From contig OX637402.1 in the NCBI GenBank assembly GCA_951799425.1, positions 29,170,492 through 29,234,491 on the forward strand: a DNA stretch of 64,000 nt. The letters run 5' to 3'. Of the stretch, positions 27,901-52,647 are shown piece after piece. The position numbers and the translations under genes were made by a program. This stretch comes from Ilex aquifolium (taxonomy: Eukaryota > Streptophyta > Magnoliopsida > Aquifoliales > Aquifoliaceae). The first letter of the stretch is position 1. Each line of letters begins with the position of its first letter. Under the pieces are notes generated by a model, which had not been told where the DNA came from, made no database searches, and worked only from the letters and a program-made list of their open reading frames with translations.

Positions 27901-30900
27901 CATTTTTCAATAATTACGGAAGCAGTACGAGATTTGATCACATGACCTCATGTTCTGATATCATATTCAATAACCATCTACTCAAAAAACTTAAACTGTT
28001 AGAGATGATATAACTTAAATATTTATACTTCAAATATATAATATAATAAACAGAGGATTACCTGTCTAGGACAGATAATCTACCACTAATGGTACCCCTT
28101 TGATCAGCATGTGGAAAATCTTCCGAAGCTGGAAAATTGTATGGCCAACTTTGAACTTCTTTCCTCATCTAAATACCAATGGATGAAAAATGATTATCAA
28201 TTGAAAAGTCTCTCGTGTTATATCTGTTTGGTGGAAAAAAGTTACGTATTTTCAATATTTCATTTTCAAACCTGTTTTTTGGCGTCGTCCCAAAGTGAAA
28301 GTGCATCATTTTGATCCGAGACAGAATTAAGATAGATAAAAACTGGTCCAAAAACTTTCTTCCATGGCTCACCTGATCCAAAATTGATCACCACATCCTC
28401 TCCCCCATAATGAGCACTTACAAACATCTGAGAGTATCAAATTGACTAATATTGGTCAGATTAGTAGCATCGTACGTAGCAGTTGATATCTATTTGAGGC
28501 ACAATTTATCATGCTTACGACAATTAGCTCCTATTTTGGTTGTTCAACTTGCAACTAATCCCAAATACTTGCTACTCGGTTGGATTTGGGTAAAAAAATC
28601 TACACCTGATTCAAATGCAGATATTATTTAGATTAGAGTCTCGGGTTTTCAGATACCAAATTAACTCAATTTCGACCCGAATTTCACCTCCGTAATATGG
28701 AATTTCAACTCAAGATGAAAATTTTCGAATTGAATTGGGTAAACTCTTAATCCTCATAATCCATCCGAGTTTGACACCCATTAGCAATCCAAATGTTGAA
28801 ATATTTCTCCTGATAAAAAAAATGTAGTAGTATTAAGGATGGTTATTTGTCACCTACAGCTAGAGTTGTTGGGTTCACATGGGAGGTTAGGTCTTGCTTG
28901 AGAGGGCCACCAGTCCTGAACTCATTGCTGGGTGAGATTTGCCAGAACCCTGCGGGTGGGTCAAAGCATATAAACCCGTGGACCCGGTTATCTTTGTTCT
29001 CACACGAATACTGATACTTGTCATCCACCTGCCCATCAAGAAATCAATGGTAAACACAATTAAATACTATCGTTCAATTGCCAAGACATTACAGTGCAAC
29101 TTAGGAGAAGATTTTTTAGTGTAAAGTCGGGTAAGGGTGGGTCCATCAGAACTTCACCCGTTCTGTCCGAAATACTCAGTACTTGAACAAATATTTACAA
29201 TACTACACTTAATTTATCTTGAATTGAAATAGTGTTTAGGTTTTGGTCTCGAGTTTTGAAGATCCATCCAAAGTGGATCCATAGCTCGAGAATCAAATTC
29301 GATTTAAGTTGAATTAAATTAGAATTGAACTCAAATACCCGTTTGAGTTGTTTAACTTGAGAATCAGACTCGATTTTAACCCATTTTCAATCTGAATTTT
29401 AGCTTGCCTAGTGTAACTCAAGTAAATAATTTAAACATCCACAATATACTTAGGTTGTAGTCGGGTTTATTTCTCAATCTGTCACATCACAAAAGATTTG
29501 TCTTTTTTATTTTATTTTTTTCTGTTTTGGTTCAATAGTCAGAGGTGTTCTGCCAACTTACGCGCCCCTCGACTAATTTCCTCTCTGATCTAGTCAAAAA
29601 TTTGTCTGTTGAAGAAGAGAGTGGAAGACATACTTCTCCTTTAAATTCTGGCTCCACAGGATCCACAAGTAGGACTGCTTCCGGGTAGGCCAGTTGTTGG
29701 CTTCTTGAGGGTGATCGATCTTCTAGGAGGGGCATGCTTCTTTTCTTATCATCTGCTATGGCCATGTAATGAAACCTAACATACACATCAAATCAACAAA
29801 ACATGCTTTACGGTTTTCCATTACAGACAGATTTAGAATTTTTCTATGCTAATTTTTTTTTTTTTTTTGTGTTGTATCAAAAGTAAATGATATTATCAAT
29901 TTAAGGCACCGCCTAAACATGCTAAATTGTGACTAAAATTTTTCGTAATTCTTAGGGGTGGTCAAGTTTGTCCTCTTCTAAGCACGAAGTCTGAGGTTTG
30001 ATATTTCTCACATCCCCTATAAGTCAGTCATCATTGTTCCTCAGGAGACATGTCTTTAAATTAGTTCAAATTACGGTTGTCGGCTCAGAGTTCGAGGAAA
30101 TAGTCAATGCAAACTTAAACACCGTATAGCAAAAAAAAATTGTGACTCAATAGATTGGTTTATGATTGATTCAAAAGATCTGGGATCAACCATAAAAAAT
30201 TAGGATCGCTCCCAAGTTTTTGGACCTCATTCATTGGTAATAGTGGTCTCATTTGACTCTAACTTGACCTCATTAGTCGTAAAATTTTTCAATACTAAAA
30301 ACATTTTTGTCGTAGATTTGTTCAGTAAATGATAATGTGCATACTTGTCCATGCTGAGCATGAAAGCTATCCTGGTTTCGTTGAGGTTGAAAGCAGGCAT
30401 GTCCTCTACATGTTCGTATATGGCATACGAGTAAAACCCCGAGCAACCACGAAGCATTATGAACCTAAACCATCATCATAAATCAACATCATCCATGTAA
30501 AAAATCCTGATCACATCATGAAATAGTTACGTATGTATGTGTAATCAGATGTGCATGTATGTATATGTGAGATCAAGGGAAGGACCTTTTGTCTATATTT
30601 AAGGGAGAGTGCTTGCTGGTAGGTGAGGAATGAGGATCCCATGTTCTTGCAAATGAGAGCTCTACCTGTTCATCGTTTTCCACTATAACCTTGAAACTTG
30701 TTCCTTCAATCCTGCACACATTGAATAATTCTCATCATAACTTGGCATTAAGAAGATGCACCCACTTTCAATCCAATAACTGTAATGTTTAGGTCTTAAA
30801 ATTAGGTCTAAAATAGCACTTTCTATCCCAAAATTGATTGTGGTTTAGATTTGGAAGGAAATCACTTACGGATCATTATATTTTAGGTAAATTATATTTA

Positions 30901-31703
30901 TATTCCCTAAATTATCACTTTTTTTTTCACTTTGTTCCTTTAACTATTAAATTTCTCATATTGTTCTCTCAACTACCAGATTGCCTCAATTATTAATGTA
31001 CGTTACATATTTAACAAAAAATTATTTTATTTTACCCCCTGAACTATATAATTTTTTTTACTTTACCCTGAAAAAAGATAACAGACGTTTGCAATTGGTT
31101 CAATATGAAACAAAATTGTTAGTTTAGGATGCAGTGTGAGAAATCTGGTAATTGAGGGGACAAAGTAAAAAAAAATGATAGTTTTGGGGGTGTAAGTATA
31201 ATTTACACTTATATTTTTTTGGAAATTGAAAAATCAAAGAACAATGCTGTAAAGACTTAATTTGTAATAATTAGATTAGTTATAAGTCCCAATATCAGTA
31301 GAGACCAACTTTCCATTTAGCAGCTACAACGAATTAAATACTAAATTAGATACAAATAATATTTTTTAAAATCAAATAATTTCAGGTAAAATGACACAAG
31401 TTTTCATTCGATTTGTGATGGACTTCTGTAATATGATAGCATGAAACTAATAAATGCGACTTGAGGTGTATGGGAAAAAACATGAAAGTTGAGGTTGGGG
31501 TAGAGTTGAGGGGAAAGTATAATTTTTCCTTAGACATATTCTCTTGATGGGATTATTAAACTCAAAAAGTGGTCATTTAAATAGAGAGTACATACGTATC
31601 AAAAGCTCCTCTTGTTCCTGAACTTCCTGGCTCGCTCCAGTTAAGATCCCAGACCCTGCAAATTTCATTAGAAAAGAGCTAAGAGACTAGATTGATCAAT
31701 TGT

Positions 31704-31739
<36 letters not shown>

Positions 31740-32273
31740 AGATGTGGGAAATGCTATGTACCCTCCAATAATATTGATTGGACTATGAAGTTCAAGCAAG
31801 TTGTCGATTCCATTGTATTGAATTCCTATGACATTTCCTCCTGGATTTGTCAATGTGAGTTGGAGTATGCCATTATAAATCACCACCTGCACACAAACAT
31901 GTCTCATCTTGCATGGATTGTATTGTATGTAAAGCGTCTCTCAATATTTGTTCAACTTATATTCGATCTATTAATAATTATATATATAGCTAAGTTTGAG
32001 TTGATCCATATATTGAAAGTCTAACGATTCCACACTTTTATTATCAAAATCCGTTAAGATTAAATCCAAACTTATTAATTTCGTATGGAGTTGACGGATC
32101 ATGCTTAAGATTACCAGACCTATATATATATACAAATTCTACCCTGATTTTAAACCTAAAAAAGAATAATTTCATAATTAAAATATCACAATGTATATAA
32201 ATATATGTATGTATAGACATAAGTGCTTTACTTGATCATCTTGAATATGCAGCTGCACCACGGTAGTAGACAT
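24947..32273 (-). CDS. rhamnogalacturonan lyase, PL4 family (RGL-A)
   Basis: Predicted to cleave the rhamnose-galacturonate backbone of rhamnogalacturonan-I by beta-elimination. Fifteen exons: 32273-32232, 31886-31762, 31655-31596, 30711-30586, 30464-30345, 29775-29634, 29028-28858, 28427-28272, 28168-28062, 27201-27111, 26777-26636, 26543-26384, 26262-26146, 25827-25698, 25192-24947. The sum is 1,935 nt, 644 residues and a stop, with every phase consistent. The N-terminal catalytic sandwich carries LQLTLTNPGG and YNGIDNLLEL. The fibronectin-like middle domain has GTISGRLSVLDRYISKK. The carbohydrate-binding-like C-terminal domain has MGDLVYEPPRNGPTLWEIG and RHGIHGLYWLF. The start is MSTTVVQLHIQDDQ with an in-frame TAG directly before the ATG, so no signal peptide is predicted, unusual for a wall enzyme. 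A Lys replaces the Glu that RGL-A', B, C and D have in SAA(E)(F/Y)Y. Otherwise intact. Confidence 0.93.
26838..27028. mobile_element. solo LTR of a TRIM element, RGL-A intron 10
   Basis: A 191-bp sequence starting TGTAACATCCCAAG and ending GGGACGTTACA, flanked by perfect 5-bp repeats CTGCA. The same site in RGL-B holds a complete LTR-internal-LTR element (44740-45279). The single LTR here is best explained by recombination between the two LTRs after the segmental duplication. Confidence 0.8.
27830..28050. repeat. retroposon-like repeat, RGL-A intron 9
   Basis: The pattern AACACGCTCTATTATGTGC, a TCTAACACATG word, a tRNA-like region (ACGAGATTTGATCACATGAC) and a TGATATCATATTCAATAACC end is typical of a dispersed plant repeat. 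The copy in RGL-B (about 46075-46190) lacks the middle part. Family and borders are uncertain. Confidence 0.35.
29520..29605 (-). mobile_element. SINE 3' fragment, family 1, RGL-A intron 6
   Basis: On the minus strand it carries the family 1 words TCAGAGAGGAAATTAGTCGA and GGGGCGCGTAAGTTGG. It overlaps the first intron bases after exon 6. RGL-B carries the same fragment at about 47680-47760, so it predates the duplication. Confidence 0.5.
29935..30136 (+). mobile_element. SINE with target-site duplication, RGL-A intron 5
   Basis: About 200 bp with a tRNA-like head (GGGGTGGTCAAGTTTGTCC, box B-like GAGGTTTGATATTTC) and a poly(A) tail. It is flanked by an 11-bp direct repeat AAATTGTGACT at 29924-29934 and 30137-30147. 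The same copy is in RGL-B, so the insertion is older than the duplication. Confidence 0.7.
30887..31206. mobile_element. Mutator-like MITE with long inverted repeats, RGL-A intron 3
   Basis: The two ends are inverted copies over roughly 75 bp: GTAAATTATATTTATATTCC at the left and GTAAATTATACTTACACCCC read from the right, both followed by an AACTATCA-like and an ACTTTGTCCC-like word. It is non-coding. The target-site duplication is unclear. RGL-B has the same element with an altered right end (about 49018-49335). Confidence 0.6.
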
Positions 32274-32752
32274 CTATCCAAGTGCCTATGGCTTGTTAGT
32301 TCTTTGGCAGCAGAGAAAACCTCACAGCAGCTGCAAATTCCTTGATGTAAAACAACAATAATAACTGTCCAAACTACCGATGCTTTGGAGAAGAAACCAC
32401 TCTTCAAACTTCTCTCCAAAGTGAAGTGAGTTTAGAGGAACATCAGAGGTTTATTAATAGATCTCTCGGTTCCTATCATCATATCTTAATCTTAACCACA
32501 TAGATATTGATAGATGTCTTAAATCTTATCATCATATCCTAATAATTACTTCTATTATATTTGGTTTTTGTTCCTTAAAGTAGACATAAAAGGGTATCCT
32601 TTTCCTTTCCTTTATGTAATACTAATCTCTTTGCGTAAACGCCACCAGGCCCACCATTGGCTTGGAAAAATTAGATACACACGCAAGAGTTGCCTTGTAA
32701 GAAATGGCAAAACCGAGCAATACAAATCATGTACAACCAGTGAATGAAATAT

Positions 32753-32898
32753 TTCTTTTGGGTCAGATCACGAGACATTTATCTCTTATAAATTTTCTAG
32801 TCTCAGCGTAGATGACTTATCTTTGATTCAGGGAAGAGATTAGTCGAGGTGCGCAAAAGTTAAACCAGACACCTTTGACCGCAATACCAAAAAAAAAA
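32753..32898 (+). mobile_element. SINE fragment, family 1, upstream of RGL-A
   Basis: The fragment shows GAGACATTTATCTCTTATAA, TCAGGGAAGAGATTAGTCGA and GGTGCGCAAAAGTTAAACCA followed by poly(A). The head is missing. The duplicate lies at about 50815-50960. Confidence 0.6.
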
Positions 32899-32929
32899 AA
32901 AGGAAATACACATTGTTTGTAACTTTGTG

Positions 32930-35332
32930 TGTGATGCCCCCAAATCCGGGTGTCCGTAATTACTCTGTTGATCACCCATCAACCCGCTGAATACCTGTGG
33001 ATACCGTGTAACTCGATAACACGCCGTTATGCCACGTTTACCGGGTTCCATAACTTAACAAAATTCGGGCAGAGTCTCCTTTGTACAGGGAGCTCTACCC
33101 AAAACGCAACATGTGCAATCCTACAACATTGACCACACCGGGTCCATTCATCCATACTCAATTGCATAGTATTGTATACTACCATAATCATCATCACTAC
33201 GTACATTCATTCATAAAAGAATAAATGTCTCAAAAGAATCCCATATATATGCCTTTTAAATATAAATAAGTTTTTTTGTTACCAAAAATTATATAAGGCC
33301 AAAAGTAAACATATATAAGGGACTGCAAAGTCAAAATAAGAGTCACAGACCGGCTCTGTCGTCAAAGCGGGCCCATGGCCTCGCCTTCGACGGACGCCTG
33401 AGCGATACCTGAAAAATGTTCCCATAAAGGGTGAGTCAACGTTCAATAGGGTAACTACTACAGAGAATACCTCTTAACCTAAATGCATATGAAATATCAC
33501 ATGCAACAATCATTTCATGCATTCATTCAAATATTTATATTATGAACAAATGTCATAAATCATGTCATGCCATGAGATGAGACTCATGCAAGCAATACTA
33601 ACACCGAACCCCATCCTGAGCTCCCACAACACATGCAATGTCATGCATATGTATCCGGACATTCCAAGCCCCTGTCATTGGTGTTATGTACACTCAATAA
33701 CTAATTAATTCATTTTCTTGTGTCTTTGTGGGGAGATGATTTATGGTATTACACCAATGGGACACCAACCATCAACGAATTTTCAGGACATCCCGCCTGC
33801 GGCTCCGTTTCCGCCGTTACACTTTTCTGGAATTGCACCGCCAGAAAGTGTATAAACTAAGTAAGGGGTCTTGCACCCGAGGGAGAATCTAACCCTTCTT
33901 GTTATCCCCGACACATTTATCTATTTAATTTCCCGTGAGACTCAACCAGACCTTGGTGCGACTTTCCCGAGCTCACGATCAACCACCTATATGGTGATTG
34001 ATTTCATACCATGCACACACTCTCACCCATGTCAATGCCCATGAATGTAGTGCAACCCATGTATAATGCAATACAATGTTCAATTACCTTTGATACCATT
34101 TACAATGTCCATTACATAATGAATGCAATATAATGACATTTTCAACACAATCCGAAGCATGTTATATAAGATAATCAACTCAACTAACATACTTGTATTC
34201 ACCTAGGCATTTAAACAAATACCTAAGGGGCATAATCAATTTATACAACTAGCATGTTTATTACTTCCAACATGGCAACATGTTTATTAATTCTATAGAC
34301 ATAAGCACAAGTCAACCACAATAATCATATGCTAAATAATCATTTAACATACATATTATTTCATAATCACATAACAAGCTAATAATTTTATTTAACTTGA
34401 TATGCCATTAAAACATCAAGTCATGTTAATCTACAATTAACATACTTTAAACCACTAACATTAACTTCCACCAAGTTAATTACAATATGATTTTACTAAT
34501 TACAATGTTAATTATAAATCATATATTTGACCCACTAGTTATACTAGTCAAGGCCTAACATGTGATATACACCCTTAGCCTGCCATTTCATATGCTATAT
34601 TTTAGGTTGAAATTACATCTAAATAGGAGAAAACCCTACCTCTCGTAGCGTGAGTCCACGTAGTAGACTCCAAAGAAAACCCAAATTTAGCTTCCCAAGT
34701 TTTAGGCCTAGATTTTCGTACTTGATATTTTTGGAGAAAAATACGATCTTTGGTGTGGTTGCGTAGCTCTCGTTGCGTAGAGCAACTTTAATTCTTGGCC
34801 CGAAGCGATTAAACGGTTAAATTTTCGTAGATCTGAGAAGGAATGAAGTAAAGAAATAAAAAAAATCTATGTTCTCTCCCTCTGTCTCGGCAGGCTGCAA
34901 GAGTGAAGCATAAGTGGGAGACAAAAGTCTTCCACTTTTTATAATTTAAAATGTGTGGTTCTCGTTGTCCAACATGTTTTTTTTTTTAATGGGTCTAATT
35001 TTATTCCGAATCAATTAAATCTCGTCTCGTGTTAAGTTTAATATATTTTTATTGTACTAACTTTAAATTATTTTTCAGGTCCCGCGAATAAAATCTGATC
35101 CCAATTATTTTAGTCGCGTGACACACGATCGCTTTGTAATACGCGATCTGTCTCAGAATTTTACAAAAATTTATTCGGTAGCTAGATTTTGCGAGACGAA
35201 TCCAACGGTAATATCTGTTTCATCATCTGAATTTTATAAAAATTCACGTTTTTGACCCATGCTTTAACAATTAATTCCTATTTTACCCCTGTAATTAGGA
35301 TTTTTAATAATTTTTTTTTCTCGAGTTTTACA
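32930..35332. mobile_element. solo LTR, 2.4 kb, probably Ty3/gypsy
   Basis: It starts TGTGATGCCCCC and ends GAGTTTTACA, flanked by the 5-bp repeat TTGTG (32925-32929 and 35333-35337). Copy 2 reads straight across the empty site near 50,985. Length and the TGTGATGCCCC start suit a long gypsy-type LTR. No gag-pol or second LTR is present, so it is a solo LTR fossil younger than the segmental duplication. Confidence 0.8.
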
Positions 35333-35599
35333 TTGTGCCTAAAAATGACAATAAATTGAAAAGTAAATTTAACTAAGGTAAAAATATATTGGTGGTCCGC
35401 GAAGTAAATTTTTTTTTTTTTTTAACTGTGTCTATTAGAGAAATTTTTTCATTTTGGCTTTGAGTTTCCATTTTTCGAATACAAATTGTCGATAGTATCA
35501 TAGTTGTATTGAATATTGCTCCCCGCAAATGCAAGCTGCAATTTTTTGTGAAGGAGTAGATTGGATGACATGACATTGAATCATCAGTTGCATTGTATA

Positions 35600-36770
35600 C
35601 AGTGGCTTGGAACCACCTGTTATCAGCATCACAAAACCCTAGCTATATACTTGAAATTCAAACCCGTCTCAGATTTTAAGGTGAGTCCATTTATAATATA
35701 CTAAGTCAATTTTATAATATAAAAGTAATGTCAAAATTATAATTGTTGAATGATTTTACTTAATTTAATAAAATAGTGTTGACTTTCTTCGGCGTGCTTC
35801 TCACGTGTACTATCATCTGATTCTCGGTGAATTTGATGATGATAAGGGCCTGATCGGTGTGTTTCTCAATGTTTGATTTGATGTTGACTTTGGTGGATTT
35901 GGCTAAGACAAGGGCTTGACCAGCGTATCCCTTAATCTTTGATTTGGTGATACTTTGGTAGATTTTTTTTGAAGACGAGAGTCGAGTTGACGTAGTTCTC
36001 ATTCTTTGATCTTTGATTTGGTGGATTTGTTGAAGGCGAGGGTAAAATTGGTGTAACTCTCGTTCTTTGCTCTTTGACTTGACTTTGTCGAATTTTTTTA
36101 CTGTTTTTTGTGTTGAATGACTTGAAGATGATTTGGGTTTCTTGTAGAAGGACATTGGTGATGTTTCTTGTAGAAGGACATTGGTGATGTTTCTTCTCCT
36201 TAGAGATAGATTTGCAAGACCTCAGTTGGGAGTAGACTCTGGCAGAGCTTCGTTGTTGATATTTCCTTCTTCTCCTGAGATAGACTCAAACAAAGCTTTC
36301 TTGATTTTCCCTCCTTCTTGTCTTCTCTAGCTCTTCCTTCTTGGCCTCCTCTTTGGTTCCTTTTTCTTGGCTTCCCCCAGACCTCTATTTATAGTGTTGG
36401 AGTAGTTATCCATATAAAATTATTTTACCTAAATACCCGTATATGGGTTTAGGTAGTGGGCCACTCATTTTTATATAATTTTATAGGCTTTAGTTGATTT
36501 GTAGAATTTAAATCCAACCAAATTTACGTTTAAAAGTCTTTATAATTTGAACTTATGAAATTTAAGTTCAAACCAATTTAATTAAATTTGAACTTCTATT
36601 ATTTGAGCTCATGGAATTTTGGTCCAGCTTAATTTAATTTAACAAGCCTTGTAATCAAATTTTGGCTTGTATTATTTGGGTTGTGGAATTTAGGTTCAAC
36701 CCAATGTAATTTATCTAATTGTGAGCTCAATTATAGATATTAATTTATTAATTTTTAATGTCTACACTGG
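35600..36770 (-). mobile_element. LTR-like block, copy 1
   Basis: Read on the minus strand it begins TGTAGACATTAAAAAT at about 36770, has a TATA box (CACTATAAATAGAGG, 36386-36393) some 380 bp in, and then degenerate repeated words such as GAAGACGAGAGTC and AAGGCGAGGGTAAAATT. This layout (U3, TATA, transcribed part) resembles an LTR. The 3' border is not clear. The same block at about 51250-52380 shows that it predates the duplication. Confidence 0.4.
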
Positions 36771-36776
36771 CAATGA

Positions 36777-36900
36777 GAGATTTATCTTTCATGAATACCC
36801 TAGTTCTATCATAGATGACTTGCCTTTGACCGAACTAGAGAGGGAATTAGTTGAAGTATATATAAGTTAGTTCGGACAACCCTAGCCCTTGGAAAAAAAA
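36777..36900 (+). mobile_element. SINE 3' fragment, family 1 (copy 1)
   Basis: It carries GAGAGATTTATCTTTCATGA, TTGCCTTTGACCGAACTAGA and GAGGGAATTAGTTGAAG with an A-rich end; the head is missing where the LTR-like block begins. The copy 2 counterpart is at about 52388-52515. Confidence 0.55.
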
Positions 36901-38640
36901 GGGTTTCTTGGCAAATTGCAAGCACAAGTCAAACAGGAAGAAATCATAATCTTATGAGCAATTTCGATTAATTGAAGCCTACTGTTCCGTAGAGATCTTT
37001 AAGGACACACATTGAAGGGTTTTTTTTTTTAAGAAGAAGAGGGACCTTCCAAACGAATATAGTCATACATAATCCCTTGGAAAGGGCTAGTGCTCTTTGC
37101 TTGTGTCAAGAATATGGTATTAATATCCCCTTCCACAAGTTGGGAACCAGTTATGTCCACATTGAACGGCCAGTAAAGCCCATGAATCCCATGCCTTGCA
37201 ATTGCGTTATCCCATCCAATTACTCCACTTGAAAATAGAGGAGGGCCCGCTTCTCGATCATTAATCCGAACCTTGGAAAAAATTCAACGCCATAGTCAAT
37301 TTACAGGAAAAAAGGATTGAGATATTCTACAGTATGTCTTTTCTTAGATTTTTTTTTCTTAATACTAGATCATCTATCGTGAATTTAAATAGACAATAAT
37401 GTACAGTGGAGGGGTTCCAAATCCCAGTTATTGGGAAATGAAATTAAAGGGATTTGTAAGTTATAAAGTGCGGGTTTTTCCTTCTTATTTATTTAACATG
37501 GAATTTAATGAATGTAGGCTCGTGCAATTCATACTTGTAATTCAGAGCGATGTGCAGATGCAAGCGCTAACCGCAATTTGTAGATTTCAGTATGTTTTAC
37601 GTTTTCAACTTTGAACTTGATTTGCCAGGTAGTACTTTTATATGTGTTATTACCTGTTTTCCTGCAATACAATAAGGTTAACAATAGGGTGTGTGTGTGG
37701 GGGGTGGGGGGTTTGCAACAGGCTTCAATGGAAACACTACCTGGTAACCTGAGCAGAAAACCAATCTTTTTTATAGTCACTTCTGCCAACTTCGTAAACC
37801 AAATCTTCATCAGGATATAAATCTGCATATCTTTCCCACAATCCATACTGTCTAAACCTGCTCAGAAAAGTCAATGATCAAGAATCAATGTTGAATATTA
37901 CCAAAAAAAAAAAAGGAGAAAAATTGGACTCGCATAACATTTTTAAATTCGAATAACCTTGGCGAAACAAGTTTCACAAAATTGGGCATTAAAAAGATCT
38001 AACCTGTCAGGATGGTTCACATAGAGTTTGTTGATATAATTCGGGTTAGGATCAGGAATATAAAATTCTGCCGCAGAACGATCAGGAATGCCAATTTCCC
38101 AAAGTGTTGGACCATCTCTTGGAGGCTCATATACAAGATCTCCCACCTTAATATGACAACCTGCTTTGCCATTCAATTTAATACTTATACCGATCAACTA
38201 ATGTTTCACATTCTTATCAATAGCGATTTTAGAAATATTATAAAACTGAAACAACATAAGACCTGAGGTTATATTAATTGCAGTAGTATACCGATAGTCC
38301 CCGATAAATCTCGGGACAAATGCATAAAGATTGTAGTTTCCAGCTCGTATATTCTTAATGACAAAATGGCCACCTTCATCTGCCGTGGTCCAAAATTGGT
38401 AACCCTAATGAAACACAAAAGGAACCAGTGTGCTTATTTGCTCAATAATAATTTAGAGTCCACGTTTAGTAGCCTTGATAGTACTAAAAATAGAGAAGTT
38501 GTCGGGTTGAGGCGGGCCATGAAGGAGACCCATGACCCTACCCACCAGGCTCATCCATGAATCTCCACATAGTAGGCCAGACAAATGGGCGGTGGGTTTC
38601 TGGAGTTTGGGCCAGCTTGTGGGCCACAAGTTTCTTTTTA

Positions 38641-38898
38641 GGTAAAAAGTTGAAGTGAGTCCTCCTAGATGTACTTGTTTGGAGATAAGTCCTGCAAGGA
38701 AACTTATAAGGGCTAAGTGCATGTTTAAAATTATATGTAATGACTTAAGTCCACTTTTTTTTTTTTATCTCAAAAATACCCTTCCTTGAAAGGAAGTTAA
38801 ATTAATTTCCTATCTTGGAAATTATTATCCCTTAATTCAAGGTCAATTAAAATATGCCAATAAAATCTCCATCATAAATTTAAAATTCAAATTCAAGG

Positions 38899-38967
<69 letters not shown>

Positions 38968-39910
38968 CACGTTGGGTTGTTATGGAGATGATGCAAGTAT
39001 AGTGGTGGCGGTGGTGTGGAGTAAAAAAGAGCTATCGAAGTGGAACTTGAATGTGCTTTTGTGTGGTGGTGATAGTGGTGAGCGTTGTTGTGGAGGTGAT
39101 GACAAAGTGATGGTTGGCGTTGCTCGAGAGGTGACGATGGTGTGATGGTGGGAGTGCTATGGTGAGGAAAGTGATAGCCGAATATTTATATATTATGTTA
39201 CTGTTCATGTTACTATTATTTTGAGCATATTACTATTTTTATTGAGCATGTTACTACTATTATTTTACTAAATATTAATATTCAATGTTACAATTTGTTT
39301 TGTTTTTGAATATTACTATTTTTTGTGTTTGAATAGTACTTTTTTTTTGAGTTTGAATTTGAGAGAAATAATTATTGTTAAGTATGTTACAGTTTTTGTT
39401 ATCATGTTACTATTTTTGTTGAACATGTTAATATTTTTGTTGAACATGTTACTGTTGTTATTTTTAAAAAATATTAATATTGAATGTTTCAATTTTTTTT
39501 ATGTTTAAATGTTATTATTTTTTTGTGTTTAAATGTATTATTTTTTGTGTCCAAATGATAATTTTTTTTTGTATTTGAATGTTACTATTTTTTATTTTTA
39601 ATGTTACTATATATATATATACACACCTAATCTATATATGGATATAGATAGATAAGAGAGAGGAAAAATTTTAATATTAGTCAAACTCTTAACCTATATA
39701 TGAATATAGATAGATATGAGAGAGAAAAAATTTTAATATTAGTCAAACTCCTAAGATTTAGGAGTTTTTAATTTTTAGTTTTATTTCACTTTTAAAAGGA
39801 AGGGATAGTATGGTAAAATTGACAAAAAACGGACTTCATAACAAAAAAGTTTCCTTGACGGACTTAAGTCAAAACAAGTCCATATAGGGGGACCGGCCTC
39901 CAAATTTTCC
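38641..39910. mobile_element. long-TIR Mutator-like element in RGL-A' intron 10
   Basis: Ends are inverted relatives over about 60 bp: GAGTCCTCCTAGATGTACTT at the left and GGTCCCCCTATATGGACTTG read from the right, each followed by a TAAGTCC word and CAAGGAAACTT. Flanks TTCTTTTTA and TTTTTTTTA form an 8/9 match, fitting the 9-bp duplication of Mutator elements. The body has no transposase frame. It includes an AT/GT microsatellite at 38911-38965. RGL-C lacks this element. Confidence 0.65.
38911..38965. repeat. (AT)n(GT)n microsatellite
   Basis: An uninterrupted AT run is followed directly by a GT run, inside the Mutator-like element. Confidence 0.9.
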
Positions 39911-39924
39911 TTTTTTTTAGTTCC

Positions 39925-40655
39925 ATGATCAGGGTATCCAGATCAGTTTACATGTACCTTGACTAATTCCCTCCCTGATCCGGTCAAAAGTAGACCATCC
40001 ATACTCAGACTAGGCAGGGCCGGCCCAACAGTATGGAAAAAAAAGCATGGGCTTTTAGGCTTCAAATTTTTAGAAGGCCCCATATTTTTAGGTACATCAC
40101 TAGCTCACAAAAAAAATTAAATCCATTAAATTTTAAGTCATACAAAAAAGGCCCAAAAAATTAAATTCAATCAAAATTTTTATTGCAATAATTTGGTCTT
40201 ATAATCCAATCCATAACATTAAAAACTTAGAAATTAAAAAAATATTCAAAAGTCAACTCATATTTACTTTCTCTCTCTCTCTCTCTCTCTCTCCGCGGTA
40301 AAAAAATAAAAATAAAAAAAACAAAAGTTGAAATTAAACACTTCTCTCACTCTCTGTGGTAAAAAACAAAAACAAAAGTTAAAATTTATTTCTCGACAAC
40401 ATTAACACATCTTTTTTTTTTGTCTCCCTTTCACATAAAAAATTTAAAATAAATTAATATGTTTAAAAAAATAATACTAAAAATAAAAAAGACATTCATT
40501 TAATGTTTCCGTTTTAGGCCTTAAATTGACTTGAGCTGCCCCTGAGACTAGGGTATTCATGAAGAACAATTCTCTCGTGACTTGACCGCAAAAAATTATC
40601 AAGATTTAAATTCAGGACGTTTGAATTTACAACTCGTCTCTTATTACTTTCTCTG
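39925..40655 (-). mobile_element. family 1 SINE split by a hAT element
   Basis: Left part 39925-40014 and right part 40545-40655 together match the order seen in the intact minus-strand SINE at 55566-55781. The two halves are separated exactly by the 530-bp hAT element and its 8-bp duplication. RGL-C keeps a shorter, internally deleted version at about 54275-54410. Confidence 0.7.
40015..40544. mobile_element. non-autonomous hAT element
   Basis: It starts CAGGGCCGGCCC and ends GAGCTGCCCCTG, imperfect inverted termini of the hAT type, flanked by a perfect 8-bp duplication AGACTAGG (40007-40014 and 40545-40552). The 530-bp interior is AT-rich and non-coding. Confidence 0.85.
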
Positions 40656-40765
40656 TGGAACTTTACCTTGCATTCTCTTTGACATGACCCAACGTCCCCT
40701 GGAGGCGCCAACCCCACGTATGCACCTTTTGCTGGTATCTGTTCCTCACTAATGTACTATCAAAT

Positions 40766-41294
40766 TGAGTCAAATTATATAATTTAGACACTAATTTGAT
40801 ATAAAAATTAATTCAAGGAATTAATTAGCACATATGCATTGTTTAGGGACTATCGTTTGCCCATTTTTTTTATTTCCGTATCGACTTATGTATTTGTGTA
40901 GCATGTGCAAAAGAATCCACGTCTCAGAACCATCGTTGGATTAATCAAATTAGCAAGTTATCAACGGCCATTAATCCGTACACGGTCCCGCACATCGTCT
41001 CTCTCTGACCACTGACTTCTCCTTGCATGTCCAAGCTGTTGACTTCGCTCTTTCTCTCTCCGCGAGACGAAATCAACGAACACAGTTCGATCTTTCGCTT
41101 CGCCTCAATTGTATGATCTTCACTTTTCTGTCGTCTCCTGCTTCTTCGATCTTGCGAAAATGGTAATTCGTTTCTACTTTTCGATATGATTTCTTTTTCC
41201 AGCTTCCACGAATCAAACCGACTATTGAATCAGGTTAATTCTCTGAAAAATCATTTTGTTTGTGTTAAAATGGCAGATCCGCTTCATATTGCTG
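40766..41294 (+). pseudogene. captured 5' end of a gene, probably AP-2 complex subunit sigma
   Basis: This DNA is in neither copy of the segmental duplication. It looks like a gene start on the plus strand: a CT-rich leader (41000-41159), ATG at 41160-41162 directly followed by a donor (ATG|GTAATT), an intron of 114 bp with acceptor TGGCAG ending at 41276, then ATCCGCTTCATATTGCTG. Spliced, this gives M-I-R-F-I-L-L, the conserved start of plant AP-2 sigma (MIRFILLQNR). The match ends at the junction with the duplicated unit. AP-2 sigma is the small chain of the clathrin adaptor at the plasma membrane. Seven residues are a short match, so the identity is inferred; that it is a gene start is better supported. 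Confidence 0.5.
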
Positions 41295-41639
41295 GATTAC
41301 AATACAAAGTATTTTTATTTTACATTTAATATTATATTTTATCCATTTATACGGAATTAACCTATATTACATAATACAATTCATTCTTTTACAATATAGT
41401 AATCAAACAAACCATAATATTCTTATGTGCAAAGTCGAGTTAGATCTTTTATATTTTGAAAACTAAACACGGATGGGAATTTGTCGGTTTAAAACATAAC
41501 TTTTTTAATTCCTTAGGTTGGAAGAGTTGTTTTGATTAATAAGTAAAATTTGTGAACTTTTTATGTAATTAGTAAGAGGGGGTATTCTTGCTATAACATA
41601 CGAAATTTGAGGTGTCATAGTCTCATTTTCAAGAAAATA

Positions 41640-42075
41640 AGAGGTGCTTTATACAATTGGTAAAGACACGAACGGAATTACTTTTGACCCATTGGACAAA
41701 AAAGGAGGACACAAAAGAATAAACAATGTTCAGCAGGCTCTCAGAAAGAGATTATTGGGCTTGAGCCTGCGTGGTTATATTACTAAGCACTCAAGAAGCC
41801 CAATAGAAAAACCTAAAGCCCATGAAAATTGGAACAAGAAGAAGCCGAGTGCTATAGACTCACAGAGGCTTAATTCAATATCTAATTTATGGCAATTCCA
41901 TAGGTCGGGCTATGAGAAATTTATCACTCATGAATACTTTTATTTTGGCGTGGATGACTTGATTTTGATCAGGCCGAAAAGGAAATTAATCAAGGTGAAT
42001 TAATCAGACTGGAGAGGAAATTAGTCGAGGTGCGCGTAAACTCTTAAACACCCCTGACCGTTGACAAAAAAAAAA
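41640..42075 (+). repeat. SINE-like 3' segment beside a conserved short block (copy 2)
   Basis: Counterpart of 22566-22960. The SINE tail here is clearer: AAATTAGTCGAGGTGCGCGT, CACCCCTGACCGTTGAC and poly(A), with a partial internal repeat of AGGAAATTA. Confidence 0.5.
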
Positions 42076-42958
42076 GGTATCCAATCTATTATATCTATTA
42101 GATTAGTTTTGAGTCCCAATATTAGATCAAACCCGCTAAATCCAATAGTTATAATTGATTCAGTTTTCAAATTATGTTTAGCAATTCAGTTCAACTAGTA
42201 AATTCTTACAGTAAAAACCAAATCTTTCATATTCCAATGAAACATCTTAACTACATTCCCACTCTTTCTTCAAATGATGACTCCTTTTTTCTTTTTCAAC
42301 TTCTCATCTTTTTACTCTCCTCTTGCTACAACACAAGGCTTGGGGGTAGGGCGAGATAGAAATGCTATGATGGGATAAGATGCAAATCTTGCACAGAATC
42401 CATCATTAATATTAATTGGAAACAAAAGAGTTGCCATGTATATGGTTAGTATGTGGTGGATATACATGTGTTCTTATGTAAATGTAAATACAAAGTTTAG
42501 TTGTTCCGATCTAAGTCAACTAATTAGGTCAACAAGTTAATTATAAATGACATTACTGTATAATAAGTGAACACGTACCCTTAATCTCTTTTCCTCGGGA
42601 TTAGCACGAAGTTTGATCTTCAAACAGAGTTTGTGCGTGGGGGAGGGGGGGGGGGTGATGCACTGTGAATTTCACAGATATTTGACTAGTACTTCAAGTG
42701 ATACGTCAAATATTTGCGAATGGGAATTAACCTCTCTAAATTGAGACAAAATTGCTCGTCACTTCTCTCTCCAAAATCTTTGTATAGATGGAATTGTTGG
42801 ACAATGGATACGTTATTTTTTTAATCAAATTAACTTCACTTTTGTTATGTATGTTAATTTTGCCACTAAACTAAAGAAAAATAGTGGTAATGTGTATTGT
42901 AAACATGTTGAAAAGATCATTAGAACATGTTTCCATGGAATTATAGTAAAAAGCTTAA

Positions 42959-45900
42959 TCAAGAACTACTAGATGGAGGGCCTTCCAAACGGATATAGTC
43001 ATACATGACTCCCTGGAAAGGGGTGGTGTCCCTTGCTTGGGTGAGATATATCGTGTTATCTTCTTGCATGAGTTGAGCACTCTGTATGTCCACACTGAAT
43101 AACCAATACAACCCGTGAATGCCATGCCAAGCAATTGCATTGTCACTCCCAATTAATCCACTTGAAAAGTGAGGAGGTTTTGCCTCCGGATCATTGATCC
43201 GAACCTGCAAAGAGAGTTCATACTATTATTTTTCAGTAATCCAGTGAAAGTTATAGTTCAATTGGGTGAAATCACGACTTAGTTGGATTGTTTGAGATTG
43301 ATCTCAATCTTTTGAATAATAATTTGATGTAATTGAATCATATCTAACCTTTTTGAGTCGTAATTTGACCTAATTTGAATCGTAACTAATCCCAATTGAA
43401 TAATAACTTTTAGTATGTATTGAACTCGGTACATAGTCATTTCCTCGAGTAAATAGACTTAACAATTGGTGGGGTGAAGAATAGGATTGGATTTCGCTCC
43501 ATTGCATTTTTTTCTCCTTTTCTTAGTAAATTATCTACCACGAATTTGCTTTGGAACTACTACGTATAATTGGCTCTTCCACCATCACCACCACTACACA
43601 ATGGGTGGTCTACCGTTAAAGAACATTGAAAGAAACTACGCTAGATGAAATTAGATCTATTTGTCTTTGTGGGTGTGTAGGGTTAGACATTTTGCAGGCT
43701 TTTTCTCACAAATACACACCTGCAATTCGGAGAAATTGGCAGATGCGAGTGCTAAGTGCAGTGTGTAGGTTCCAGCAGCTTGATCAATATTGTCAAGTTT
43801 GAACTTGATTCGCCATGTAGTTGCCTTATATGCATTGTCACCTGTTTTCCTGCATTCACATCACCAAAATTCTAATAAACCATGCAGTCTTGAAATTTAT
43901 TCTTCGATTGAATTACATTGAATCATAATTTCATTACATTATGATTCAAACAAGTCAAATTACTATCAAATGTAGTCGATTAGGATCGATCTCAAGATTC
44001 TATTGGAACAAAAGAAAGAAGATTAAGACCCATGTGAAAGTCTGCACCTGGTAACCTGAGCAAAGAACCAATCTTTACGATAGTCACTCTCTCCAATTGT
44101 ATAGACCAAGTCTTCATTAGGATATAGTTCTGCGTATCTTTCCCACAATCCATATTGTCTAAACCTACTCACAAAAGATGACTGATTCCTTATTATGTTC
44201 AAAAGACCCACCAATAGATGGTACAATACTATATAGAATAAAAGAGTCCCTGCCTGTCATAACTATTTTTGCAAGGAAGACTTACCTGTCCGCCGGACGA
44301 TTTATATATAGTCTATTGATATACATTGGATCAGGATCAGGAACGTAAAATTCTGCAGCAGAACGATCAGGAACGCCGATTTCCCACAATGTGGGACCAT
44401 TTCTTGGAGGCTCATATACAAGATCACCCATATCAATACTACCACCTGTGTTACATTATAAATGCATGACAGAATGATCAAATGAAATATAAGAACTTGA
44501 AACTTTAGCAAAGGTGAATTGAATAAATATATAGGACCTGTAGTGATAGTAATAGCATCATCGTATCGATAATCTCCAATAAAACCAGGGACCCATGCAT
44601 AAAGATTGTAATCGCCAGCACGAATGTTGCTGATGGAGAAATGGCCTTGGTCGTCTGCTCTGGTCCAGAATTGATAGCCCTGATATGAAAATCACAACAT
44701 TATTATTATCTTATCAAGGTGTATTATCCTCTGACTGTATGTAACATCCCAAGTTTTTTTATAAAATAAATGTTAAAATTGGGGGATGTATTTGTATTTG
44801 TTTGAAGATTCGATTATCAATTTAATTTTGTTATTAATGTAATTACAGTTTTGACCGTGTATTTGGAAATATTTTGTTAGATTATATATGATAAAGTATT
44901 CGAGAAATCGGGGCATTACAGAGTAGTATCACACCTTAGATTTCAGATCTTACATAAGTATTTTGGGGAATGAGCTTGCTAAGTTTCTGTTACTAGAATG
45001 TATAAGGTGAATATGATATCAGAGTACGCAAAAAAAATAATTAGCTTATAGCCTGTGAATTTTGAGGATAAAATTCCTTTTAAGGAGGGTGGATTGTAAA
45101 ATTTCAAGTTTTTTATAAAATAAATGTTATAATTGAGAGATATATTTGTATTTGAAGATTTGATTATCAATTTAATTTTTTTTAATGTAATTAGAACTCT
45201 GACCGTGTATTTGGAAATATTTTGTTAAATTGATCAATTGATATATATAATAATGTATCCGAGAAAACGGGGTGTTACACTTCAAGAACAAGATGTTGCA
45301 ATTTTTCTGAAACTAATGGTCTAGCAGAACATGGTACTTAGAAACTTTAACCTAAAATCACCTTGCATTCTTTTTGAAATGATCCAGCAACCCCAGGTAA
45401 AGCCAACCCCACGTAAGCGCCATTCGCCGGTATAGCTTCCTTGCTGATATACCTAATCAATAACAAAAAAAGAAATATCTATACATTTATTACAAAAGAT
45501 GAGATGAAACCACTATTTTAAGTTGAATAGATGTGATTCATTAAGGAATTGTCTATCTCTAGATACAGACTGAGATTAAATCTTAGTAGCGACTTATATT
45601 GGCAATAAACTTGATCCGTGGCCATTCTTCCAAAACCAATCTTGGTAGGAAAAGATTACGGTATCGTCGGTGATACCGTACTGAAATTTATAATTTTTTA
45701 AGGTTACGTGATAATTTTTTAAGCTTATATTATAATTTTTTTGAGGTATAAGTTACAATTTTAAAGAATATGATCGATAATGGAAGGTTGGGATCGATAC
45801 CGAGAGTTCTTGATCGATCATGGGTGCCTGTGATCAATCATGACTTTCTCTTGAGTAGTTGTAACTTGTCCTTTCAAAATTATAACTTTACCATAAAAAG

Positions 45901-48900
45901 GTAACCAACGATACTGATATTGAATTTTTAGGGTAGAGTTTCCTATCTTTGTATATCAAGAAAAAATATAAGTGAATTTTTCCCAGGTTGATGATCAATC
46001 CCATGTTAACAAGATATACACATTCCTTTCAAATCAATAAAGTTTAAGGTTAAAGATGATGAAACTTAAATATTTATATTTTAACACGCCCCTTTATGTG
46101 CAGACTAAATTTTAGGTCGAACACATAAAAATCGTTTTTCAATAATTAGGGTAGCAACACGAGATTTGAATATTTATACTTCAAATAAATAATATAATAA
46201 ACAGAGGATTACTTGTCTAGGACAGATAATCTACCACTAATGGTACCCCTTTGATCAGCATGTGGAAAATCTTCTGAAGCTGGAAAACTGTATGGCCAAC
46301 TTTGAACTTCTTTCCTCATCTAAATACCAATGGATGAAAAATGATTATCAATCGAAAAGTCTCTCTTGTGTTATATCTGTTTGGTGGAAAAAAGTTATGT
46401 ATTTTCAGTATTTCATTTTCAAACCTGTCCTTTGGCGTCGTCCCAAAGTGAAAGTGCATCATTTTGATCCGAGACAGAATTAAGATAGATAAAAACTGGT
46501 CCAAAAACTTTCTTCCATGGCTCGCCTAATCCAAAATTGATCACCACATCCTCTCCCCCATAATGAGCACTTACAAACATCTGAGAGTATCAAATTGACT
46601 AATATTGGTCAGATTAGTAGCATCGTACGTAGCAGTTGATATCTATTTGAGGCACAATTTATCATGCTTACGACAATTAGCTCCTATTTTGGTTGTTCAA
46701 CTTGCAACTAATCCCAAATACTTGCTACTCGGTTGGATTTGGGTAAAAAAATCTACACCCGATTCAAATGCAGATATTATATAGATTAGAGTCTCGGGTT
46801 TTCAGATACCAAATTAACTCAATTTCGACCCGAATTTCACCTCCGTAATATGGAATTTCAACTCGAGATGAAAATTTTCGAATTGAATTGGGTAAACTCT
46901 TAATCCTCATAATCCATCCGAGTTTGACACCCATTAGCAATCCAAATGTTGAAATATTTCTCCTGATAAAAAAAATGTAGTAGTATTAAGGATGGTTATT
47001 TGTCACCTACAGCTAGAGTAGTTGGGTTCACATGGGAGGTTAGGTCTTGCTTGAGAGGGCCACCAGTCCTGAACTCATTGCTGGGTGTGATTTGCCAGAA
47101 CCCTGCGGGTGGGTCAAAGCATATAAATCCGTGGACTCGGTTATCTTTGTTCTCACACGAATACTGATACTTGTCATCCACCTGCCCATCAAGAAATCAA
47201 TGGTAAACACAATTAAATACTATCGTTCAATTGCCAAGACATTACAGTGCAACTTAGGAGAAGATTTTTTAGTGTAAAGTCGGGTAAGGGTGGGTCCATC
47301 AGAACTTCACCCGTTCTGTCCGAAATACTCAGTACTTGAACAAATATTTACAATACTACACTTAATTTATCTTGAATTGAAATAGTGTTTAGGTTTTGGT
47401 CTCGAGTTTTGAAGATCCATCCAAAGTGGATCCATAGCTCGAGAATCAAATTCGATTTAAGTTGAATTAAATTAGAATTGAACTCAAATACCCGTTTGAG
47501 TTGTTTAACTTGAGAATCAGACTCGATTTTAACCCATTTTCAATCTGAATTTTAGCTTGCCTAGTGTAACTCAAGTAAATAATTTAAACATCCACAATAT
47601 ACTTAGGTTGTAGTCGGGTTTATTTCTCAATCTGTCACAACACAAAAGATTTGTCTTTTTTATTTTATTTTTTTCTGTTTTGGTTCAATAGTCAGAGGTG
47701 TCCGGCCAACTTACGCGCCCCTCGACTAATTTCCTCTCTGATCTAGTCAAAAATTTGTCTGTTGAAGAAGAGAGTGGAAGACATACTTCTCCTTTAAATT
47801 CTGGCTCCACAGGATCCACAAGTAGGACTGCTTCCGGGTAGGCCAGTTGTTGGCTTCTTGAGGGTGATCGATCTTCTAGGAGGGGCATGCTTCTTTTCTT
47901 ATCATCTGCTATGGCCATGTAATGAAACCTAACATACAGATCAAATCAACAAAACATGCTTTACGGTTATCCATTACAGACAGATTTAGAATTTTTCTAT
48001 GCTATTTTTTTTTTTTTTTGTGTTGTATCAAAAGTTAATGATATTATCAATTTAAGGCACCGCCCAAACATGCTAAATTGTGACTAAAATTTTTCGTAAT
48101 TCTTAGGGGTGGTCAAGTTTGTCCTCTTCTAAGCACGAAGTCTGAGGTTTGATATTTTCCACATCCCCCTATAAGTCAGTCATCATTGTTCTTCAGGAGA
48201 CATGTCTTTAAATTAGTTCAAATTACGGTTGCCGGCTCAGAGCTCGAGGAAATAGTCAATGCAAACTTAAACACCGTATAGCAAAAAAAAATTGTGACTC
48301 AATAGATTGGTTTATGATTGATTCAAAAGATCTAGGATCAACCATAAAAAATTAGGATCGCTCCCAAGTTTTTGGACCTCATTGATTGGTAATAGTGGTC
48401 TCATTTGACTCTAACTTGAGTGGTCTCATTTGACTCTAACTTGACCTCATTAAGTCGTAAAACTTTTCAATACTTAAAACATTTTTGTTGTAGATTTGTT
48501 CAGTAAATGATAATGTGCATACTTGTCCATGCTGAGCATGAAAGCTATCCTGGTTTCGTTGAGGTTGAAAGCAGGCATGTCCTCTACATGTTCGTATATG
48601 GCATACGAGTAAAACCCCGAGCAACCACGAAGCATTATGAACCTAAACCACCATCATCATCATAAATCAACATCATCCATGTAAAAAATCCTGATCACTT
48701 CATGAAATAGTTACTTATGTATGTGTAATCAGATGTGCATGTATGTATATGTGAGATCAGGGGAAGGACCTTTTGTCTATATTTAAGGGAGAGTGCTTGC
48801 TGGTAGGTGAGGAATGAGGATCCCATGTTCTTGCAAATGAGAGCTCTACCTGTTCATCGTTTTCCACTATAACCTCGAAACTTGTTCCTTCAATCCTGCA

Positions 48901-49766
48901 CACATTGAACTGCAATTGTTTAGGTCTCAAAATTAGGTCTAAAATAGTATTTTCTATCCCAAAATTGATTGTGGGTTAGATTTGAAAGGAAATCGCTTAC
49001 GTGTCATTATATTTTTGGTAAATTATATTTATACTCCCTAAATTATCACTTTTTTTTTCACTTTATTTCTTCAATTATTAAACTTCTCACATTTTCCTCT
49101 TAACTACCAGATTGCCTCAATTATTAATCTCCGTTATATATTTAACGAAAAATTATTTTATTTTATCCACCGAACTATGTAATTTTTTTTACTTTACCCC
49201 GAAAAAAGATTAACAGATGTTTGCAATTGGTGCAATATGAAAAAAAATTGTTAGTTTAGGATGCAATTTGAGAAATCTAGTAGTTGAGGGGACAAAGTAT
49301 AAAAAGTGATAGTTTTGGGGGTGTAAATATAAATATAGTTTTGGGCAAATTGAAAAATCAAAGAATAATGCTGTAAAGACTTAATTTTAGTGTCTAATTT
49401 ATTGTTATCATTAGATTAGTTATTAGGTACAAATAATATTTTTTTAAATCAAATAATTCCAGGTAAAATGACACAAGTTTTCATTTGATTTGTGACAGAC
49501 GTCTGTAATATGATATCATGAAACTAATAAATGTGATTTGAGGTGTATGGGAAAAAACATGAAAGTTGAGGGGATTAAAGTGTAATTTTTTCTTAGACAT
49601 ATTCTCTTAACGGGATTATTAAAATAAAAAAGTGGTTATTAAAATAGAGAGTACATACGTATCAAAAGCTCCTCTTGTTCCTGAACTTCCTGGCGCGCTC
49701 CAGTTAAGATCCCAGACCCTGCAAATTGCATTAGAAAAGAGCTAAGAGACTAGATTGATCAATTGT

Positions 49767-49803
<37 letters not shown>

Positions 49804-50341
49804 GAGATATGGAAGATGCGGGAAATGCTATGTACCCTCCAATAATATTGATTGGACTATGAAGTTCAAGCAAGTTGTCGATTCCATTGTATTGAATTCC
49901 TATGACATTTCCTCCTGGATTTGTTAATGTGAGTTGGAGTATGCCATTATCAATCACCACCTGCACACAAACACGTCTCATCTTGAATGGATTGTATCGT
50001 ATGTAAAGCGTCTCAACATTTGTTCAACTTATATTTGACTCATTAATAATTATATATATAGCTAAGTTTGAGTTGATCCATATATTGAAAGTTTAACGAT
50101 TCCACTTTTATTATCAAAACCCGCTAATATTAAATCTAAACTTACTAATTTCGTATGGAGTTGACGGATCATGCTTAAGATTACCAGACCTATATATATA
50201 CAAATTCTACCCTGATTTTAAACCTAAAAAAGAATAATTTTATAATTAAAATATCACAACGTATATAAATATATGTATGTATAGACATAAGTGCTTTACT
50301 TGATCATCTTGAATATGCAGCTGCACCACGGTAGTAGACAT
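42959..50341 (-). CDS. rhamnogalacturonan lyase, PL4 family (RGL-B)
   Basis: Duplicate of RGL-A with the same 15 exons and the same exon lengths: 50341-50300, 49960-49836, 49718-49659, 48895-48770, 48642-48523, 47928-47787, 47181-47011, 46580-46425, 46319-46213, 45452-45362, 44679-44538, 44445-44286, 44164-44048, 43849-43720, 43204-42959; 644 residues, no breaks. The substrate should be rhamnogalacturonan-I, as for RGL-A. The start MSTTVVQLHIQDDQ follows an in-frame TAG, so again there is no signal peptide. Differences from RGL-A include Glu in SAAEFYVPDP (the common residue), Trp for Arg in IA(W)HGIHGLYWLF where RGL-A, A', C and D have Arg, and an exon 9 donor CAA|GTAATC in place of CAG|GTAATC, which should weaken it and turns the split Arg codon into Lys. 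Confidence 0.93.
44740..45279. mobile_element. TRIM-type LTR retroelement, RGL-B intron 10
   Basis: LTR 44740-44920 (TGTAACATCCCAAG to GGCATTACA), internal 44921-45094, LTR 45095-45279 (TGTAAAATTTCAAG to GTGTTACA). A purine-rich tract (AAGGAGGGTGGA) lies directly before the second LTR, and a TGATATCAGAGTACGC string inside resembles a tRNA-Met primer site. Flanks CTGTA and CTTCA are diverged forms of the CTGCA pair in RGL-A. The interior is far too small for genes. The two LTRs have diverged noticeably, so it is an old non-autonomous fossil. Confidence 0.8.
47680..47765 (-). mobile_element. SINE 3' fragment, family 1, RGL-B intron 6
   Basis: Duplicate of the fragment at 29520-29605, with GGGGCGCGTAAGTTGG and TCAGAGAGGAAATTAGTCGA on the minus strand. 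Confidence 0.5.
48086..48288 (+). mobile_element. SINE with target-site duplication, RGL-B intron 5
   Basis: Duplicate of 29935-30136, flanked by AAATTGTGACT at 48075-48085 and 48289-48299. Confidence 0.7.
49018..49335. mobile_element. Mutator-like MITE, RGL-B intron 3
   Basis: Counterpart of 30887-31206. The left inverted repeat is well kept (GGTAAATTATATTTATACTC); the right end has diverged (GTGTAAATATAAATATAG), so the border is approximate. Confidence 0.55.
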
Positions 50342-50814
50342 CTATCCAAGTGCCTATGGCTTGTTAGTTCTTTGGCAGCAGAGAAAATCTCACAGCAGCT
50401 GCAAATTCCTTGATGTAAAACAACAATAATAACTGTCCAAACTATCGATGCTTTGGAGAAGAAACCACTCTTCAAATTGAATGGAGTTTAGAGGAACATC
50501 AGAGGCTTATTAATAGATCTCTCGGTTCCTATCATCATATCCTAATCTTAACCACATAGATATTGATAGATGTCTTGAATCTTATCATCATATCCTAATA
50601 ATTACTTCTATTATATTTGGTTTTTGTTCCTTAAAGTAGAGATAAAAGGGTATCCTTTTCCTTTCCTTTATGTAATACTAATCTCTTTGCGTAAACGCCA
50701 CCAGGCCCACCATTGTCTTGGAAAAATTAGATACACACGCAAGAGTTGCCTTGTAAGAAATGGCAAAACCGAGCAATACAAATCATGTACAACCAGTGAA
50801 TGAAATATTTCTTT

Positions 50815-50960
50815 TGGGTCAGATCACGAGACATTTATCTTTTATAAATTTTCTAGTCCCAGTGTAGATGACTTATCTTTGATTCAGGGAAGAGATTAGT
50901 CGAGATGCGCAAAAGTTAAACCAGACACCTTTAACCGCAATACCAAAAAAAAAAAAAAAA
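50815..50960 (+). mobile_element. SINE fragment, family 1, upstream of RGL-B
   Basis: Duplicate of 32753-32898, with a longer poly(A) tail. Confidence 0.55.
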
Positions 50961-51249
50961 AGAAATATACATTGTTTGTAACTTTGTGCCTAAAAATGAC
51001 AATAAATTGAAAAGTAAATTTAACTAAGGTAAAAATATATTGGTGGTCCACGAAGTAAATTTTTTTTTTTTTTTTAACTGTGTCTATTAGAGAAATTTTT
51101 TCATTTTTGGCTTTGAGTTTCCATTTGCTAAATACAAATTGTCGATAGTTTCATAGTTGTATTGAATATTGCTCCCCGCAAATGCAAGCTGCAATTTTTT
51201 GTGAAGGTGTAGATTGGATGACATGACATTGAATCATCCGTTACATTGT

Positions 51250-52380: not shown

Positions 52381-52387
52381 CTACACT

Positions 52388-52515
52388 GGCAATGAGAGAT
52401 TTATCTTTCGTTAATACCCTAGTTCTGTCGTAGATGACTTGCCTTTGACCGAACTAGGGAGGGAATTAGTTGAAATGTATATAAGTTAGTTCGGACAACC
52501 CTAGCCCTTGACAAA
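52388..52515 (+). mobile_element. SINE 3' fragment, family 1 (copy 2)
   Basis: Duplicate of 36777-36900, with the same missing head. Confidence 0.5.
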
Positions 52516-52647
52516 AAAGGGGTTTCTTGGCAAATTACAAGCACAAATCAAACAGGAAGAAATCATAATCTTATGAGCAATTTCGATTAACTGAAGCCTA
52601 CTGTTCCATAGAGATCTTTAAGGACACACATTGAAGGGTTTTTTTTC

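Follow-up and report, generated by a model that had tools for sequence, protein, structure and literature searches.

The window analyzed here, the 64,000 nucleotides at C12:29170492-29234491 of the 800-Mb Ilex aquifolium genome, carries a cluster of rhamnogalacturonate-lyase (RG-lyase) genes. Domain PF06045, the N-terminal part of RG lyase, has 40 hits in the genome, 12 of which fall in the window and mark three N-terminal halves: A1 at 29.6-31.9 kb, A2 at 47.8-50.0 kb and B2 at 56.6-60.0 kb. Domain PF14683 has 28 genome hits, 15 of them in the window, and these resolve into five C-terminal halves, A1, B1' (37.1-38.1 kb), A2, B2 and C. The N-half hits that fit C lie outside the window. For B1', no N-terminal half was found among the PF06045 hits (three PF14683 hits have no PF06045 partner). 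All hits to either domain in the window are on the minus strand. Elsewhere in the genome, additional RG-lyase hits occur at C20:25.87-25.94 Mb and C3:1.17 Mb. The window also includes long reading frames on the minus strand at 3526-11538, which we take to resemble a plant UPL1/UPL2-type HECT ubiquitin ligase.

The duplicated RG-lyase genes

Comparison of the window with itself revealed a direct, same-orientation tandem duplication of RG-lyase genes, with a unit of approximately 13 kb. The main features are:

22218-40760, no strand: copy 1 of the tandem pair, lengthened by insertions specific to it (self-BLAST; breakpoints by eye)
37050..40756, minus strand: B1', the copy 1 RG-lyase C-terminal half without an N-terminal half (first exon approximately 40667-40756, by eye)
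40756..40760, no strand: downstream breakpoint E, with the bases ACTAT, which the edge of copy 2 has as well and which contain the minus-strand AG acceptor of an RG-lyase exon (by eye)
41292-54507, no strand: copy 2 of the tandem duplication, opening with CTGGATTA as copy 1 does, with a 2-bp CT overlap with the donor described below

The two copies differ at 618 of 12,769 gap-free sites (4.8%), counted over seven blocks of at least 84% identity each, two of which overlap in copy 1 (26838-27028), so that this region is counted twice. Divergence is uneven, ranging from 0.7% to 11.5% by 400-base stretch. At 28415-30417 the copies differ by only 0.7-2% per stretch, against up to 11.5% elsewhere, and this low divergence may reflect either gene conversion or selection.

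Three insertions are present in copy 1 and absent from copy 2, and every one is flanked by a target-site duplication. These are a 1.16-kb insertion at 23384-24540 (7-bp duplication ATAAATG); a 2.4-kb insertion at 32930-35329 with TG...CA ends and the 5-bp duplication TTGTG, presumably a solo LTR or LTR-type element; and a MITE at 40015-40544, with ends CAGGGCCGGCCC and GAGCTGCCCCTG and the 8-bp duplication AGACTAGG, which we assume to be hAT-like.

At the downstream breakpoint E, homology between the copies stops at ACTAT (ATAGT on the minus strand). The RG-lyase exon that ends here, at approximately 40667-40756, reads YISEEQIPAKGAYVGLAPPGDVGS and has a corresponding exon in B2, A1 and A2 (boundaries by eye). 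Beyond E, 111 bp on the copy 2 side align to A2 at 75.7%. Given the corresponding exons of A1 and A2 and the alignment of this flank with A2, the copy 2 side of E is taken as ancestral. The end of the duplication cut the B1' gene ahead of the YISEEQ exon and left a half-gene in copy 1.

Source, orientation and retained intron of the bridge

Copy 1 and copy 2 are separated by a bridge of about 531 bp (approximately 40761-41291) that belongs to neither copy. A first-pass annotation of this DNA had described such a bridge, with a left edge at 40766, as the start of a probable AP-2 sigma gene. Self-BLAST (E<=1e-10) agrees that it has no other match in the window; the one exception is an alignment between the copies whose last 14 bases, up to 40774, fall in the bridge. 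The earlier left edge is near the one read by eye, at approximately 40756-40761. The bridge consists of two parts:

40761..40866, plus strand: part A, a repeat fragment of about 106 bp whose family is dispersed; the other 24 scored matches are 76-87% identical
40867..41293, plus strand: part B, the AP-2 sigma 5' flank, 5' UTR, ATG, intron 1 and the opening codons of exon 2, with 96% identity to C12:33252688-33253112
41160..41162, plus strand: AP-2 sigma ATG, with the splice donor GTAATT directly after it
41163..41276, plus strand: AP-2 sigma intron 1, with donor and acceptor intact

The gene-start structure annotated earlier, a CT-rich leader, an ATG followed at once by GTAATT, a short intron with its acceptor, and codons for IRFILL, is present in full. 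Its identification as AP-2 sigma rests on a match far above chance (E 2.1e-194, 96% over 427 bp). The donor, on the plus strand at C12:33252688-33253112, matches bridge positions 102-528 and lies on the same chromosome and the same strand as the bridge, 4.04 Mb away. In the genome search, the bridge thus finds its counterpart in the 5' part of an intact AP-2 sigma gene that runs on beyond the break (ATTGCT|TCAGAACAGG). This gene is complete, with an ATG, a short intron and then ATCCGCTTCATATTGCTTCAGAACAGG onward; its product of 142 amino acids (spliced by eye) has AP-2 sigma as its best PDB match (E 5.3e-55), ahead of AP-1 sigma (1.3e-42). A paralogue is located on C16.

A search with the 529-bp bridge returned 16 genome matches: the bridge itself, the C12 donor, a 38-bp match to the C16 paralogue, and 13 repeat hits within the first 89 bases. 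Only the bridge itself and the donor cover part B. We base the single-copy count of part B on this search, in which all 16 matches were scored, because a transposable element swelled the candidates of the donor-query search, of which the best 40 of 1,321 were scored. The absence of any match, or a match to a repeat family only, had been named beforehand as telling against a captured gene start; neither describes the bridge as a whole, but a repeat-only match does describe its first 106 bp or so. The filler differs from the donor at 13 of 422 aligned sites (3.1%). It has kept intron 1 and approximately 290 bp upstream of the ATG, and a processed retrocopy, which would lack introns, begin at the transcript and carry a poly(A) tail, is rejected on these grounds.

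No near-identical source of part A was found in a genome search in which the best candidates were scored and very common words were skipped, and two gap-free part A patterns, allowing up to three mismatches, were found in the window only. On the donor, the homology shared with the filler starts within a T-run abutted by a transposable element that starts TAGGGATRGCAGT, and the border between parts A and B of the filler likewise sits in a T-run. The abutting element is high-copy, accounting for 54 of the 56 matches among those listed for the donor query, and other copies of it extend further. At the donor (L009:4957-5196) it is truncated and internally deleted, and adjoins the AP-2 sigma promoter region directly upstream. 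It was compared with four of six element loci (L028-L031), two being in reverse orientation and set aside; conservation lines of the repeat and element alignments were used only where loci shared an orientation. Part A is not a collinear flank of the donor as it stands today: the sequence left of the element is only weakly similar to it, and in reverse orientation, with a score of 44 that 3 of 500 letter shuffles attained; in forward orientation, 172 of the 500 shuffles attained the score of 28. Since donor homology ends where the truncated element now abuts, part A may be former donor flank. In the simplest account, the donor flank would have been altered after the capture, and part A, once upstream of the donor, would have been lost when the transposable element joined it.

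Junction sequences and the origin of the bridge

Junction S lies at the upstream unit edge. There copy 1 has CCAAATA|CTGGATTATAAT, copy 2 has CATATTG|CTGGATTACAAT and the donor has CATATTGCT|TCAG. By these three sequences, donor identity stops at ATTGCT, two bases into the unit, which starts CTGGATTA, giving a 2-bp CT overlap. The donor continues past the junction, as had been predicted, but identity ends at CT and not at CTG. The octamer CTGGATTA, previously noted as an 8-bp site, does form the first 8 bases common to both copies; with five occurrences in the window (three on the plus strand, two on the minus) it is rejected as a special recombination site. Short overlaps are thus found at both filler edges, CT at S and possibly ACTAT at E. 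No target-site duplication around the filler was seen by eye at the junctions. In the 681 bp searched for inverted pairs, none of five short pairs has arms at both filler ends. Two of them span S (16 nt, 81%; 12 nt, 92%); as the right arm of each falls within the unit, they are not the ends of a captured element.

Templated filler is recognized by an insert at a junction whose template is still in place, joined by short overlaps and with no target-site duplication, and by its arrival together with the rearrangement, for which the divergence counts are given below. Part B has such a template in the intact donor at C12:33.25 Mb (96%), and the junctions have the CT overlap at S, possibly ACTAT at E, and no target-site duplication visible by eye. 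Templated repair also fits the retained intron and upstream DNA, the same-orientation donor and the single copy. We consider it probable, at roughly 0.7, that the bridge is templated filler DNA, left when break repair or a replication error produced the tandem duplication. A strand end originating at E, the downstream breakpoint at the exon acceptor, would have taken the beginning of the AP-2 sigma gene as its template for 427 bp or more, perhaps for all 531 bp or so. Copying would then have switched back to the upstream unit edge S at the 2-bp CT overlap and continued through the second copy. The route may have been ectopic SDSA or microhomology-mediated template switching. The first-pass annotation had likewise proposed DNA-level capture during break repair rather than a retrocopy, a view favored by the retained intron and upstream DNA, the single copy, and the lack of flanking terminal repeats, transposon ends or target-site duplication.

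The simplest reading, and a likely one, is that duplication and capture were one event. The filler-donor difference of 3.1% is compatible with the overall copy-copy difference of 4.8% (Fisher p=0.10). In the unit block adjoining the junction, however, the copies differ at 84 of 1158 sites (7.3%) against 3.1% between filler and donor (p=0.002), which could mean a later capture. Changes polarized with the C16 paralogue in a rough alignment fall on the donor in 5 of the 10 columns where C16 aligns and on the filler in 2, with 3 left ambiguous, and thus give no sign of a slowly evolving donor. Under a later capture, the duplication would have come first, and a subsequent double-strand break between the copies would have been repaired with AP-2 sigma filler, possibly erasing the original junction. 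We regard such a sequence of two events as unlikely, as it requires a second event at the same place, and as divergence is uneven along the unit and its overall level is compatible with one event. Somewhat less doubtful is a composite filler, with parts A and B copied from two separate places. The non-collinearity of the part A repeat fragment with today's donor flank and the position of the A/B border in a T-run speak for it. Set against these are the lack of a near-identical part A source, the two gap-free patterns confined to the window, and the end of donor homology at an abutting truncated element, which suggests that the donor changed later; on balance this reading is less likely than not.

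The remaining alternatives are far less probable. A Pack-MULE or other TIR element, or a Helitron, could have captured the AP-2 sigma start and carried a copy here, and part A is indeed a fragment of a repeat family. Helitrons have a 5' TC and a 3' CTRR with a hairpin, and insert between A and T; the CTGG at the S edge precedes an A and belongs to the unit itself, and with no second copy of the piece among the 16 genome matches a Helitron is rejected on both its 3' end and copy number. TIR elements and Pack-MULEs are rejected on end structure and the same copy number, given that the 681 bp searched have no inverted pair at both filler ends and that no target-site duplication was visible by eye. 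Capture of plant gene fragments by such elements is stated in a portion of PMC3445842, yet for this bridge transposon capture is very improbable. An assembly artefact, a false join or a haplotig duplication, is less probable still: the filler diverges 3.1% from its donor, and the copy-specific insertions carry target-site duplications.

Relation to known filler DNA and possible consequences for copy 2

As templated filler DNA, the bridge is a long and clean case of a kind already known and no new system. Wicker, in "Patching gaps" (2010), reportedly described how ectopic SDSA moves gene fragments as filler. FoSTeS/MMBIR events combine a duplication with an insert from a distant site and short overlaps where the template is switched. 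The present junction resembles them in all three respects, and the name is applied by analogy, from one genome. FoSTeS/MMBIR is named in sections of PMC3706897, which also give filler-like segments in 38 barley insertion/deletions (12.7%). Passages of PMC2686159 give maize filler sizes of 8 bp at bz1, 1-131 bp at wx and 31-84 bp at R-r, along with a 50-bp p2/p1 filler from two sources in a chimeric gene intron beside the P1-wr tandem array; short fillers in maize p1 alleles appear in parts of PMC3014980. For rice transposon excisions, the relevant portion of PMC4423477 reports foreign filler in 58 of 94 cases, with a mean of 13 bp and a range of 1-123 bp. As at these maize and rice breaks, foreign DNA was copied into the junction here, and such filler can be a mosaic. 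The fillers in these excerpts are, however, short and often local (1-131 bp, PMC2686159; 1-123 bp, PMC4423477), whereas here at least 427 bp came from 4 Mb away, at a duplication junction. Gene-bearing fragments serving as SDSA filler, described in a section of PMC3445842, share the copying of gene DNA into a break, but the link made there is with the insertion of transposons and with entire non-collinear genes; the present filler bridges a tandem duplication.

The captured fragment lies on the plus strand and the RG-lyase genes on the minus strand, so that any transcript starting in the fragment and entering copy 2 would run antisense to them. Such a transcript, if spliced, would contain one further feature:

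41277..41360, plus strand: computed fused reading frame of 28 amino acids (M, IRFILL and unit sequence), with its stop at 41358-41360

An active AP-2 sigma promoter and first exon in the captured piece might drive a spliced antisense transcript toward the 3' end of the copy 2 RG-lyase gene, but we consider this very improbable. If true, the act of duplication would itself have given the copy a regulatory state new to it, supplied by a housekeeping gene.

The junction preserves the donor, orientation, overlaps and extent of the filler, and is therefore useful for asking how frequently long templated filler accompanies plant gene duplication. One rearrangement can set a housekeeping promoter region and splice donor beside a new gene copy, leaving a half-gene cut at an exon border.
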